Shown piece by piece: positions 57,278-64,000 of a stretch of 64,000 nt of DNA. The position numbers were made by a program, and so were the translations under genes. How positions within the stretch are numbered: the stretch's first letter is position 1; each line of letters begins with the position of its first letter. Source of the DNA: Enoplosus armatus (Eukaryota > Chordata > Actinopteri > Centrarchiformes > Enoplosidae); contig NC_092183.1 in the NCBI RefSeq assembly GCF_043641665.1, positions 15,028,501-15,092,500 on the forward strand, in the 5' to 3' direction. The notes below the pieces were generated by a model that made no database searches, was not told the origin of the DNA, and saw nothing but the letters and a program-made list of their open reading frames with translations.

Positions 57278-58788
57278 AGCTGCCCATACACTGCAGAGCC
57301 TCTCTCTGGCCTAATCTAATAGGAGCACGCTGTGACTGATGCATTAGGTCTGGTCTCTAATCTCTCTCTCTCTCGCTCCAACTCCCTCTTTCTCTGATGA
57401 TCTATGATAGAAAAGGCTGGTTTGACCCTTGTTACATTCAGAAATGTAGCAATAGATAAAACATTTGGGACAATTTCGGACCAAGAAGTTTGTTCCTAAT
57501 GGCCACAGGAGGACAGAATAATCAGTCTTTTGGATGGATCTCTTCTGGTGCTCATAGTTATAGCTGTAAACAAACACTGCAGTGAAAAATATATTGTAGT
57601 CACAGTGATATTTAATAAATGTACAGTTCTGATTGTATATTTGCTCTGCTAAAGCTACACAGGTACACACATACATACACAAATACCCTCAAAAATGACC
57701 ACAGAATTTCATTATAAGCTTTGTATGCATAGCGCACCTTGTATTGTCTCTCTGTCTGTAATACTTTATGTGTTATGTGCTCCCTGGCTATATAAGCAGT
57801 ATTATCTCACTCCTTGTGGGAAAACATTCTTTATCTTGTCTCTCTGGCTGCTCTTTGGTTTATTACACTTCGGGTTTATTACACTCGCAGAGCGGCAATG
57901 CTGATTGATCAAGACTTTCAACTGACGGCTGGTTCTTTTTCCAATTTTATTAGGTTGGACTGTAACCGTAGTTGTCTTCTGTGTGTTAAATCCACCTCTA
58001 CATACCTACAATATCAGACCTTTGATAATCTTTCAGGCTGTTTTAGCTGGTCACCTATCACTATTACTGCTAATACATACATATATACACTTTGTTAACA
58101 ATATTTTTTCTCTCTGTCCTCTCCAGGTCAGTGCCAGGTGGCCACCCCTCAGTGCCGTATCCAGAAGTGCACCACCGACTTCGTCTCCCTGACCTCCCAC
58201 CTGACGCCGGCCGTGGATGGCTTTCATACTGAGTTTTGCAAGGCTCTACGTGCGTACTCGGCCTGCACCCAGAGGACAGCCAAGTCCTGCCGGGGGAACC
58301 TGGTCTTCCACTCGGCTGTGCTGGGCATCTCTGACCTCATGAGCCAGAGGAATTGCTCCAGAGACGGGCCCACTTCCTCCACGCACCCCGAGGTGGTCCA
58401 CGAGCCCTGCAACTACCACAGTCGCACCCAGCACGCCCACACACACTCCCACGCGCATGCGCACACACACTCCCACGCTCACGGCCACTCTCGGCCTGCA
58501 TACCTGTTCTGCGGGCTGTTTGGGGACCCACACCTGAGGACATTTAAGGACAGCTTCCAGACTTGTAAGGTGGAGGGGGCGTGGCCTCTCATCGATAATG
58601 ACTATCTGTCAGTACAGGTCACTAATGTTCCCGTGGTACCTGGTTCCAGTGCCACAGCAACCAATAAGGTGAGAAAAGAACAGTTATGAAGCGGGAAGCA
58701 GAGAGAAGTGGACTTTTTGGGGTCTAATTTGCTGTTATTAAGGCTGAAAGAGTTTCCTAAGTGAGAGCAGCTGGTGTAATCTGGTTTA

Positions 58789-58843
<55 letters not shown>

Positions 58844-59725
58844 GAAAACATTTCCTATAATGACCTCTAAGTTGCTTTTCTTCGCCTCAGAGTAAGAAAT
58901 CTTATCAATGTGAGGGTGGAAAACTCCCGTACTCCCGCTGCTGTAGTTTTTTCTTTTTCTGCCTCCTTCTCTGTGTCTCTTGCTCCCTCAGTCTCACAAA
59001 TGTGAGGCAAGCAGCCCGATGTTGTGACTATCTCTTGTGACTCAACCAGTGTTGGAAACCTAACTTGGTTAATGGCTGCATATAGGCTGGCCTCTAATAA
59101 CATGGAGTGAGATGTGTGAAAGAACCCACTGTTTACTTATGTGTGTGTTTGCAGGTATGTGTGTGTGTCTATTAAGTGGCACTCCTTACACTCAGCTTAA
59201 AGCACTATGCGTGTTAAAGGTCCTTATCCCTTAATGACAAAAAAGACACACACACACCACCAAATGGATGACGAGCCACACAAGGTGATCTTTGTGGTGT
59301 TAAAGAAGCTATGTTGATGTTTCCCCCGATGATCTGCCCTCTCTAGCTTAGTCGATAGCTTTAATTATTAAAACACATACACACCCATGCAAACACTTAG
59401 TCATGCACACGCTGGCAGAAACACACACACACACATTAAGCAAATAGTAGGGTTGCTACACTGGAGTTGAAGGTTTGACCTTGTGTCAGAGGTGGGGCAA
59501 GTTATTAGTCACGATTATTAGACACACACACACACTCTCTTACAACCACACACACACACATTAACAGCCCTCCAGGTTTAATGGCCTGCCAGGCCTCATT
59601 CCTCACGGCTGTCATGTGAACAAAGCAGCCTTTCACCGGAACTATGATGCTAGTGCTAACCGTAATGCTCACACCACACCCTGTATCCACCACTGCCTCC
59701 ACTCACCACTGGAGCCCTGTGTGTT

Positions 59726-59766
<41 letters not shown>

Positions 59767-60793
59767 ATGTGTCAGCATGTTTGCATAGCTGTGTCAAATT
59801 ACAACTTGTTAAAAAGTAATTTAGTCATTTCTCAAATGTAGTGTGATGAGAGTCTATAACCTGTGTAATGGGTGAATGTTAATATTTGTGAGTGTGTGTG
59901 AGAAAGAGGGAGAGAGGGTCTATATATACAGAAAATAGTGAATGATGAAAGTTGTATTTGTGCAATATCAAATGAATTGACTTTGTAACTGTGAATCAAT
60001 TTTTATTCAATGCTCCCTCTCTCCTTCTCTGTAGATCACCATCATCTTCAAGCCCTATGAGGGTTGTACAGACCAGAGGGTCTACCAGGCTGTCACAGAC
60101 AACCTCCCTGCTGCCTTTGACGATGGAACCGTGAGCAGCGGAGACCCCATCCACACTTCTGCTGGTGCAGACGGTGCAACTGGGAAGGTCCGGGCTCTGT
60201 GGATCTCTGAGCGCAGCCCGGGGTACCACGTAGAGCTGCACGCTGGCTACATTGGTGTAACTGTAATCGTTCGCCAGCTGGGCCGCTACCTGACCCTGGC
60301 AGTGCGGATCCCGGAGGAGCTGGCTCAGGCCTACGATGCCACCCAGGACCTGCAGCTCTGTCTGAACGGCTGCCCCAGCGGAGAACGCATTGACCAAGCG
60401 GGGCATCTTCCCCTGCCCCTCTCCCCTCCTGCGCTCGGCCTACAGCTTCAGCAGCTGCGTCGGCCCAGCTACTCCTCACAGACACAAGCATCCCCCTATG
60501 GTGCCATGCAGGTTTTCGGTGTGGAGGGGGCGAAGGAACGCTGCAGGGAGCAGCTGGAGGTGCAGGACATTTACTTCCACTCCTGTGTGTTTGATCTCCT
60601 GACCACTGGGGATGCTAACTTCACAGTGGCGGCGTACAGCGCCCTGAAGGACATGGAGAGTCTCCACCCGCACCGGGATAGATGGAGGATCTACCCCCGC
60701 GGCTCTGCCACCTCCACCTTACACTCTGATTCTCAACCTATCAAACGGCTCATTCTGCTCCTGCTCTGTGCTCTGAGCGTGGCATTGATGTAA
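54054..60793 (+). CDS. rgmb: Repulsive guidance molecule B (DRAGON), complete, three coding exons
   Basis: Coding exons are 54054-54171, 58127-58668 and 60035-60793; they join in phases 1 and 0 to 472 aa. The start ATG (GGGGATGG context) is the first in frame after a stop at 53976. Residues about 26-39 form the hydrophobic core of a signal peptide. The N-terminal RGM domain begins [18 protein letters not shown], followed by the partial von Willebrand type D domain with [12 protein letters not shown]; the autoproteolytic Asp-Pro is D173-P174. Potential N-glycans are at N115 and N415. A hydrophobic tail (about 458-472) fits a GPI-anchor signal. RGMB is a cell-surface BMP co-receptor and neogenin ligand in neurons. 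RGMB-specific blocks such as [24 protein letters not shown] sequence (here [17 protein letters not shown]) separate it from RGMA. A His-rich insert occupies residues 142-160. Confidence 0.98.
55697..55718. repeat. Perfect 22-bp palindrome in rgmb intron 1
   Basis: The half-site CTCTGATCTCC is followed directly by its reverse complement with no spacer. Confidence 0.95.
57234..57272. repeat. (TG)n microsatellite, rgmb intron 1
   Basis: About 19 TG units. Confidence 0.93.
58794..58838. repeat. (TG)n microsatellite, rgmb intron 2
   Basis: About 21 TG units about 130 bases past the exon 2 donor. Confidence 0.93.
59731..59765. repeat. (TG)n microsatellite, rgmb intron 2
   Basis: About 17 TG units. 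Confidence 0.93.
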
Positions 60794-62337: not shown

Positions 62338-62428
62338 GCTCTGTTGCTATGTCAGTGTGTTACTCAAGGCGCTCAAAAAAACAAAAAAAACATGAGGAAA
62401 AAACTGTGTGCAAGTGTTTTATTTAAAA

Positions 62429-62434
62429 AATAAA
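62429..62434 (+). terminator. rgmb: Poly(A) signal of rgmb
   Basis: AATAAA 1636 bases after the stop codon, followed by T/GT-rich sequence. Confidence 0.6.
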
Positions 62435-62445
62435 GTCAATATGGT

Positions 62446-63037
62446 TCAAGCTTACTTCCTGTTTATTGATCACATTCACAGGAATATAAAAAAGCAAAAC
62501 AACATACTGAAAAGTGTAAAACTATGTTTATATGTAAACCTTAAGCTAAGGTTTCCCCACAATTCTTTTGGTAATTCAAGAAATTAAGAATTAAAGATGT
62601 GTAAAAATACACGCAGATCTTCTCACAAACACACATACAACATATGTGCACTAACCCATCTGTCTGAGGTGAGGTTAAGATCAGATACCAGGTTTGGCCT
62701 CACAAACACAATCCGTTTTCAACTGCCGCTGTCGGCGACACCTGGGATGTCAATGACAAAAGGCTGAAAAAGGCGCGACAAAAGATTTGCAGCATTTGAA
62801 GCCTGTTACCACTGTGATCCTGACAGTGGATGATTTCCCATTCAATCCATGAGATTCCAATCCAAAACTCAGTGTAGGAACATTATCATAAAGCCAACCA
62901 CAAGGGCAGACCACGCTCAACTTCTTCCAGTGCAGAGATCCTCATTGTGAAGACTTCAAACAAGAAAGACTTCCTCTCCGGGTTAGTTTGCATTTCAAGG
63001 TCACACGGTGCATCAGAAGCCCTCCGTTTCCAACCAT
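62446..63037 (-). other. Probable 3' UTR exon of the Ig-domain gene
   Basis: The transmembrane exon's stop codon overlaps a good donor (AAGTG|GTAAGA at 63180), and a TTTCAG acceptor lies at 63038. If spliced, the junction itself makes TGA, so the protein would end one residue earlier. A terminal UTR exon after the membrane exon is also the layout of mammalian TRAC. Confidence 0.45.
62462..62467 (-). terminator. Candidate poly(A) signal of the convergent Ig-domain gene
   Basis: TTTATT on plus is AATAAA on minus. A second minus-strand AATAAA lies at 62418-62423. Either would place the 3' end within a few tens of bases of the rgmb 3' end. Confidence 0.45.
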
Positions 63038-63176: not shown

Positions 63177-63860
63177 TTACCACTTAACAACAACGTAAGT
63201 GGTCATCAAAGTGTTAAAGACGATGATCTTCATGAGAAGCAGCCTCATGACCAGGACAACCACTATGTTTGTCCACACACCAACATCTGGAGATCAAACC
63301 ACACAGACCAACATAAGGAACAACATCGGTATGAAGCAACAGGGGCTTTTTTTATTTGTTTGCAAACAATTAAAATGCACCTTCTGTCTCTTCATATCCA
63401 TAGCAGATTTTGTCTTGATGATCTGAAATGAAAAAATGTATTAAAAGTGTAAAATAAAAAGTAATAAAATATATTATTTGAGGGTGGAAATGACAGAAAC
63501 CAAATTCAACATTCTGGTTTCCTCACACAGGATCAGCTACAGTCCTACCTGATGGGGAGGTGAGGTGTCTCCTGTTGACTTTTGGGTGTCGTCTGTGACT
63601 CACTGAGCAACTGTACGATGGCCAGTCACCGGTCGCCACCATGATGATCGCCACGGCACTGTGGCCACGATGCTTCCTGTTTACAGCAAAGCTGTATGGC
63701 AAACTGGACATAAGGCCTTCTGATGGTGACCTCCAACTGACCTCTAGGTGCCCTCTCTTGAAGTCACTCACCATACAGACCAGCAGGGTCCAGCCCAGCC
63801 TCTCCCCTGACAGGTGGACTGGAGTGGCCAGAGATGCCAGCACATCCCCCTCTACCCCTC
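63177..63860 (-). CDS. Pre-TCR alpha / TCR constant-like Ig-superfamily membrane protein, 3' exons only
   Basis: Three exons are read. The C1-type Ig domain is 63860-63549 (phase 1-1), with LLVCMVSDF, Trp 14 residues later in LEVSW, then YSCSVSH; the Cys-Cys spacing is 56. The connecting peptide is 63422-63381 (phase 1-1, 14 codons, DHQDKICYGYEETE plus a shared Gly), with one Cys for an interchain bond. The transmembrane exon is 63286-63177, containing VLVMRLLLMKIIVFNTLMT and ending VVVKW-stop. Arg and Lys five residues apart in the membrane are the CD3-pairing residues of TCR alpha, TCR delta and pre-TCR alpha. The Trp in strand C, a Trp five residues before the second Cys, and the short connecting exon favour pre-TCR alpha over TRAC or TRDC. 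The cytoplasmic tail is only a few residues. A non-coding fourth exon probably starts at 63037. The leader exon lies beyond the right edge, so a V-J-C receptor gene is not excluded. Confidence 0.7.
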
Positions 63861-64000
63861 CTAAAAGATGATGGAGGACAACATGAAGAAAATTACATTT
63901 TGACAAAGATAAGATGTGCATTAGGATCGGGAGAGATTTCTTGGTCTGTGGCAATCTAACAGAAGGTTATGCACTGGTTCAAACACAACAATTAAATGAA

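Follow-up and report, generated by a model that had tools for sequence, protein, structure and literature searches.

Is the small immunoglobulin-type gene that lies tail to tail with rgmb in the fish Enoplosus armatus a pre-TCR alpha gene, as was originally predicted from the letters of the DNA alone? We examined this question in a stretch of 64,000 nucleotides (the window; C7:15028501-15092500, contig NC_092183.1) and in the sequence beyond it (C7:15091001-15151000), the first 1.5 kb of which overlaps the window. The upstream scans cover 58.6 kb upstream of the Ig exon.

The analysis points, with a probability that we put at roughly 0.6, to a germline-invariant, predicted-complete gene that encodes a short, TCR-alpha-class type I membrane protein, most likely a pre-TCR alpha chain. 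The interpretation given in the original prediction is therefore partly supported, and the evidence for and against each part of it is set out below.

Anatomy of the gene

We confirmed the presence of three exons on the minus strand of the window (Table 1). They form the series that had been claimed: a phase 1-1 Ig exon, a 14-codon connector that holds a single Cys, and a membrane exon in which R-x4-K and FNTLMT are found. The Ig exon contains Cys28 and Cys84 (counting from its first complete codon), a Trp in strand C and another Trp five residues ahead of the second Cys, and it matches the Pfam C1-set profile (24.2 bits against a cut-off of 21, E 4.4e-5). It is the only C1-type motif detected in the 64-kb window by a regular-expression scan (run without a positive control), and a scan of the same kind detected no second C1 motif in the 60 kb of C7:15091001-15151000. 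The introns between the window exons are short (126 bp between the Ig and connecting-peptide exons, 94 bp between the latter and the membrane exon), and all junctions are in phase 1 and follow the GT-AG rule, with the connecting-peptide donor, AAG|GTGCAT, as the weakest of their sites. The membrane exon ends with VVVKW-TAA, which leaves almost no cytoplasmic tail.

Table 1. Positions of the features of the gene and of its neighbours (plain numbers are window positions)
Feature	Position	Strand	Remarks
rgmb coding exons	58099-60793	plus	Pfam RGM_N/RGM_C and PDB
Probable 3'UTR exon	62445-63037	minus	predicted splice; low end is an estimate
Membrane exon	63286-63177 (TAA at 63179-63177)	minus	reads ...MRLLLMKIIVFNTLMTTYVVVKW
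Connecting-peptide exon	63422-63381	minus	42 nt, 14 codons, phase 1-1, reads DHQDKICYGYEETE
C1-type immunoglobulin exon	63860-63549	minus	312 nt, phase 1-1
Predicted leader exon	C7:15093141-15093087 (L002:2141-2087)	minus	reads MTEPSRGLFYLPIIYLWT, phase 1
erap1-like exons	L002:3680 onward, L002:4505-4834, L003:6605-7057, L003:8191-8556 (C7:15094680-15109556)	plus	

The coding part of the gene may be followed by one more exon. A strong donor lies within the last Trp codon: the exon would end at 63181 and the intron, GTAAGAGG, would begin at 63180. At a distance of 143 bp from this donor, an acceptor, CTTTCAG|ATGG, would open an exon at 63037. The splice from 63181 to 63037 would keep a stop codon (TGA) and probably gives a separate 3'UTR exon. 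Human TRAC also has a separate 3'UTR exon.

The original prediction had called for a search for a leader exon to the right of the window, and a strong predicted one was identified there, 587-641 bp past the right end of the window and 726 bp upstream of the Ig exon. This exon reads MTEPSRGLFYLPIIYLWT and then the first base of a split codon, and its donor (CAG|GTAAGA) agrees with 8/9 bases of the consensus CAGGTAAGT. When joined to the three window exons in phase 1, it gives an intact reading frame of 172 residues and then a stop. Two leader-like exons in the approximately 18.6 kb upstream passed a loose filter (donor 6/9 or better, hydrophobic core of 1.5 or more), the predicted leader having the better donor and core; a strict filter (donor 8/9, hydrophobic core 2.0) retained two in 242,000 strand-bases of the locus, the predicted leader included. 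Elsewhere in the locus, leader-like exons of this kind occur at about 0.004-0.008 per kb.

We also considered an intron-less reading, in which an in-frame ATG at 63921 runs straight into the Ig exon. It is disfavoured, since this stretch resembles the pyrimidine-rich tract of an acceptor and the predicted leader exon is the stronger candidate. The 809 bp upstream of the leader contain one E-box (CAGGTG), one TATAAA and no CSL/Notch site.

Comparison with TCR and immunoglobulin chains

The sequence of the gene was compared with those of human chains. The letters of human PTCRA (ectodomain), TRAC and TRDC agree with PDB entries 3of6_D, 6jxr_m and 9cq8_A, and those of IGLC2 were partly visible in the PDB matches; the letters of the PTCRA membrane segment, TRBC, TRGC, IGKC and B2M are provisional. 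All z scores are pairwise, against human chains, and should not be read as a tree.

In ungapped six-frame scoring of the 64 kb, the membrane segment came first both for the human TRAC helix (score 46; next 25) and for that of TRDC (38; next 30, containing stops). In a search of 177,635 distinct PDB sequences at E up to 10, the connecting-peptide and membrane piece had one match, 6mf8_A, a TCR alpha chain (E 0.8, 13.8 bits, a match that is weak on its own). A chance resemblance is nevertheless unlikely, because the TCR-alpha helix match comes together with a C1 exon, junctions in phase 1 and a connector that has one Cys. The helix of the fish gene scored z 6.2-7.2 with TRAC, 7.3 with PTCRA (provisional letters) and 3.7-4.1 with TRDC. 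Starting from PTCRA (provisional letters), the fish gene reached 9.2 against 4.5 for TRAC; starting from TRAC, the order was TRDC (9.5), the fish gene (5.7) and PTCRA (3.0, provisional letters).

The Ig domain gave a different order, with Ig lambda at the top (z 14-16), followed by Ig kappa (5.9), TRBC (4.9, slightly ahead of PTCRA over the whole domain), PTCRA (4.1), TRDC (1.7-1.9), B2M (1.3), TRAC (1.2) and TRGC (0.6). When the three-exon protein was compared with PDB, no TCR chain was named among the best 60 of 1012 matches. Human PTCRA, used as a control, behaves in a similar manner: its best non-self PDB matches are Ig light chains and IgA, and its Ig domain scores 7.3 with Ig lambda, 4.5 with the fish gene, 3.3 with TRAC and 2.7 with TRDC. 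Since human PTCRA is also nearest to Ig lambda, the closeness of the fish gene to Ig lambda is no argument against pre-TCR alpha. The Ig lambda constant domain, which shows the highest Ig-domain similarity, has no membrane exon; an Ig light-chain constant region is a single C1 exon, whereas the fish gene adds in-phase connecting-peptide and membrane exons.

The first 18 residues of the Ig exon match PTCRA (score 28, a value reached by 0.4% of 1000 shuffles) and not the seven other chains, for which the corresponding figures were 10-76% (eight comparisons, uncorrected). Among the human TCR-family chains compared, pre-TCR alpha is thus the best match for the start of the Ig exon and the joint best, with TRAC, for the helix. 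The view that the gene matches pre-TCR alpha best holds to this extent and fails over the whole Ig domain, where Ig lambda, Ig kappa and TRBC score higher. A profile match to the PTCRA family did not emerge: at E up to 10, Pfam returned only C1-set and a sub-threshold DUF, and no PTCRA (profile PF15028 in an excerpt of PMC12529555; we assume its presence in the library).

The gene shares with amniote PTCRA (human 3of6_D) a leader and one C1 Ig exon without V-J (here a genomic prediction), a short connecting peptide with one Cys, the R-x4-K membrane helix (provisional letters for the human helix), the two Trp residues (one in strand C, the other five residues ahead of the second Cys) and the way in which the Ig exon starts (GVEGDVLASLATP against GVGGTPFPSLAPP). 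It differs in reading FNTLMT where PTCRA reads FDLLLT (provisional letters). It also lies outside the Pfam PTCRA matches, has other identified neighbours, lacks a tail past the helix and has no N-glycosylation site in the predicted chain, and for these reasons we consider it to be pre-TCR-alpha-like by anatomy and probable mechanism, and make no claim of orthology with amniote PTCRA. The missing tail is a weak criterion against PTCRA, because the pre-TCR alpha tail shows very little conservation of sequence or length, and some mouse studies found the tail dispensable while others found it necessary (both points from an excerpt of PMC10373305, a paper of 2023).

The R-x4-K pair and FNTLMT had both been noted in the original prediction, the charged pair as common to TCR alpha, TCR delta and pre-TCR alpha. 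FNTLMT does not single out pre-TCR alpha: this motif, the absent tail and the probable 3'UTR exon are as much TCR-alpha-like as pre-TCR-alpha-like. TRDC has in common with the gene the R-x4-K helix and a similar stretch around the second Cys (SYSCSVSH against SVTCSVQH); it is set apart by its weak Ig match, by its weaker helix match and by D/J segments, which were not found here. Viral and prokaryote contigs searched with the Ig exon, and viral contigs searched with an rgmb exon, yielded no relatives, which is what one would expect of a gene from a vertebrate.

Proposed function

With the known pre-TCR used as a model for the steps that go beyond anatomy, the following mechanism may be proposed. 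The leader would send the chain to the ER, where its C1 domain would pack against the C-beta domain of a TCR beta chain that has just been rearranged, and the Cys of the connecting peptide would form an interchain disulfide with TCR beta. The Arg and Lys of the helix would recruit the acidic residues of the CD3 and zeta dimers, and the resulting signal would report a usable beta chain at a stage when the thymocyte still has no alpha chain. We regard the splicing of the gene, its expression in the thymus, its pairing with TCR beta and with CD3/zeta, and the checkpoint role as inferences.

The same anatomy would fit a non-rearranging chain of the TCR-alpha class with another job, for example one that pairs with TCR gamma, with a surrogate beta chain or with another copy of itself, or one that serves as a CD3-associated subunit of an innate receptor, and the Arg-x4-Lys pair predicts only assembly with CD3/zeta, not the partner chain. 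We nevertheless consider such a job unlikely, since among known chains it is pre-TCR alpha that comes closest in both anatomy and the beginning of the Ig exon.

In a wider reading, the gene may be the missing pre-TCR alpha of ray-finned fishes, an invariant, non-rearranging chain of the TCR-alpha class that runs a beta-selection checkpoint; for this claim we see about even odds. Were it true, the pre-TCR would either predate amniotes or have arisen twice, and the position of the gene at a locus beyond the reach of synteny searches around CNPY3 would explain why it has been missed. Deletion of one small gene would then be a direct test of the order in which fish rearrange TCR beta and alpha. 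Furthermore, the near-absent cytoplasmic tail would bear on the importance of the tail, which is disputed in mouse work (excerpt of PMC10373305). Among the open-access matches listed, as far as their excerpted text goes, there was no report of a gene for pre-TCR alpha in fish (a scope that leaves out preprints and the majority of subscription journals). Genome databases may already list the gene under an automatic name.

Search for rearranging segments

A different origin would be a dispersed TCR alpha/delta constant gene, or a constant gene of a new TCR class, with rearranging V and J segments located farther off or on the other side. The gene shares with TRAC the series of Ig, connecting-peptide and membrane exons, and a membrane helix (RLLLMKIIVFNTLMT against RILLLKVAGFNLLMT) in which R-x4-K and FNxLMT are both present. 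The helix is as TCR-alpha-like as it is pre-TCR-alpha-like, and the short tail and probable 3'UTR exon would also suit such an origin.

However, the rearranging segments themselves were not detected. A regular-expression scan (without a positive control) revealed no V-type domain in the 64-kb window or in the 60 kb of C7:15091001-15151000. Recombination signal sequences (RSS) were scanned for with a heptamer of at least 6/7, a nonamer of at least 7/9 and spacers of 12 and 23. One RSS-like site was found in the window (55610) and one upstream (C7:15133325; 13/16, approximately 41 kb from the gene, in the orientation that a J segment would need); these two isolated sites, in about 122 kb read on both strands, look like chance occurrences. 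There was no J-like RSS array in the 58.6 kb upstream or in the 64-kb window, and no D/J segments with RSS, of the kind that TRDC would have upstream, in the 58.6 kb upstream (RSS scans without a positive control; V and RSS motif scans can miss degenerate segments). Recombination signals with J segments just upstream, which the original prediction had named as evidence that would count against it, are thus represented by nothing nearer than the single site approximately 41 kb away. For comparison, catfish TRAC lies 1.4 kb from the nearest J, a pseudogene (excerpt of PMC8656973).

Other differences from TRAC concern the chain itself. The fish gene has its own strong predicted leader in frame 726 bp upstream, occupies another locus, and encodes a complete C1 domain with a strand-C Trp, whereas human TRAC has no strand-C Trp. 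The connecting-peptide motif of TRAC, FETDxxLN (excerpt of PMC12529555), is absent from its connecting peptide, where YEETEDVGVW is found instead, and the chain is longer than salmon TRAC, which comprises 110 residues in three exons (excerpt of PMC8559430), compared with 153 here. Taken together, these data make a rearranging TCR gene a quite improbable source of the exons.

Because of the predicted in-frame leader and the lack of a V-type domain and of a J-like RSS array upstream, the gene looks like a stand-alone, germline-invariant unit of leader, Ig, connector and membrane exons, as in pre-TCR alpha. The proposal that it stands alone, with a leader and one Ig exon and no V-J, has thus gained a predicted leader and motif scans that show no V-type domain and no J-like RSS array over 58.6 kb. 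That the gene is merely a decaying, unexpressed relic of a TCR constant gene, open by chance, is very improbable: the weak connecting-peptide donor would fit decay, but the four exons, the GT-AG sites, the frame and the polyadenylation signal are all intact.

Genomic neighbourhood

The gene tail to tail with the Ig gene, on the opposite strand, was verified as rgmb by both Pfam and PDB; all four PDB matches at E up to 0.001 are named RGMB, one of them RGMC as well. The 3' ends of the two genes abut, as judged from the polyadenylation signals AATAAA at 62467 (minus strand) for the Ig gene and at 62429 (plus strand) for rgmb. Within 62423-62467 the AATAAA of the plus strand (62429) and those of the minus strand (62467 and 62423) interlock, and the 3'UTRs of rgmb and the Ig gene therefore probably overlap.

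Downstream of the Ig gene lie rgmb, riok2 and lix1. The amniote PTCRA neighbours named in an excerpt of PMC9614664 (CNPY3, RPL7L1 and POLR1B) are absent among the identified neighbours (the ORFs of 122.5 kb were scanned in part). The teleost TR loci, as described in excerpts, look different as well. The TRA/TRD locus has smg7 on its TRD side (PMC8656973, PMC5972329), with V genes in inverted orientation downstream of TRAC (PMC8656973, PMC8559430). In catfish, TRG is flanked by amph and stard3nl, and TRB is next to papilin and an ARID gene (PMC8656973). The present locus differs from these in its downstream genes and in having no V-type motif in the window.

Upstream, an erap1-like M1 aminopeptidase gene is arranged head to head with the Ig gene. 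The M1 aminopeptidase erap1 acts in the trimming of MHC class I peptides. The probable first ATG of the erap1-like gene (in an exon whose link to the M1 exons is predicted) and the leader ATG are 1.5 kb apart. The erap1-like exons probably represent two tandem genes, since one part of the M1 N-domain is present twice. An ISRE-like sequence, GAAAGTGAAACT, was noted at L002:2871 (L002:2141 being C7:15093141), between the leader and the erap1-like gene and approximately 0.8 kb before the probable erap1-like ATG.

Farther upstream of the Ig gene, ORF fragments that by eye resemble Ty3-type gag and reverse transcriptase are present on the plus strand (L005:1976-3359, C7:15122976-15124359). On the minus strand, C7:15137334-15139924 (L006) contains a 647-codon open frame with an adjoining 229-codon zinc-finger-like frame, both of which are perhaps derived from a transposon.
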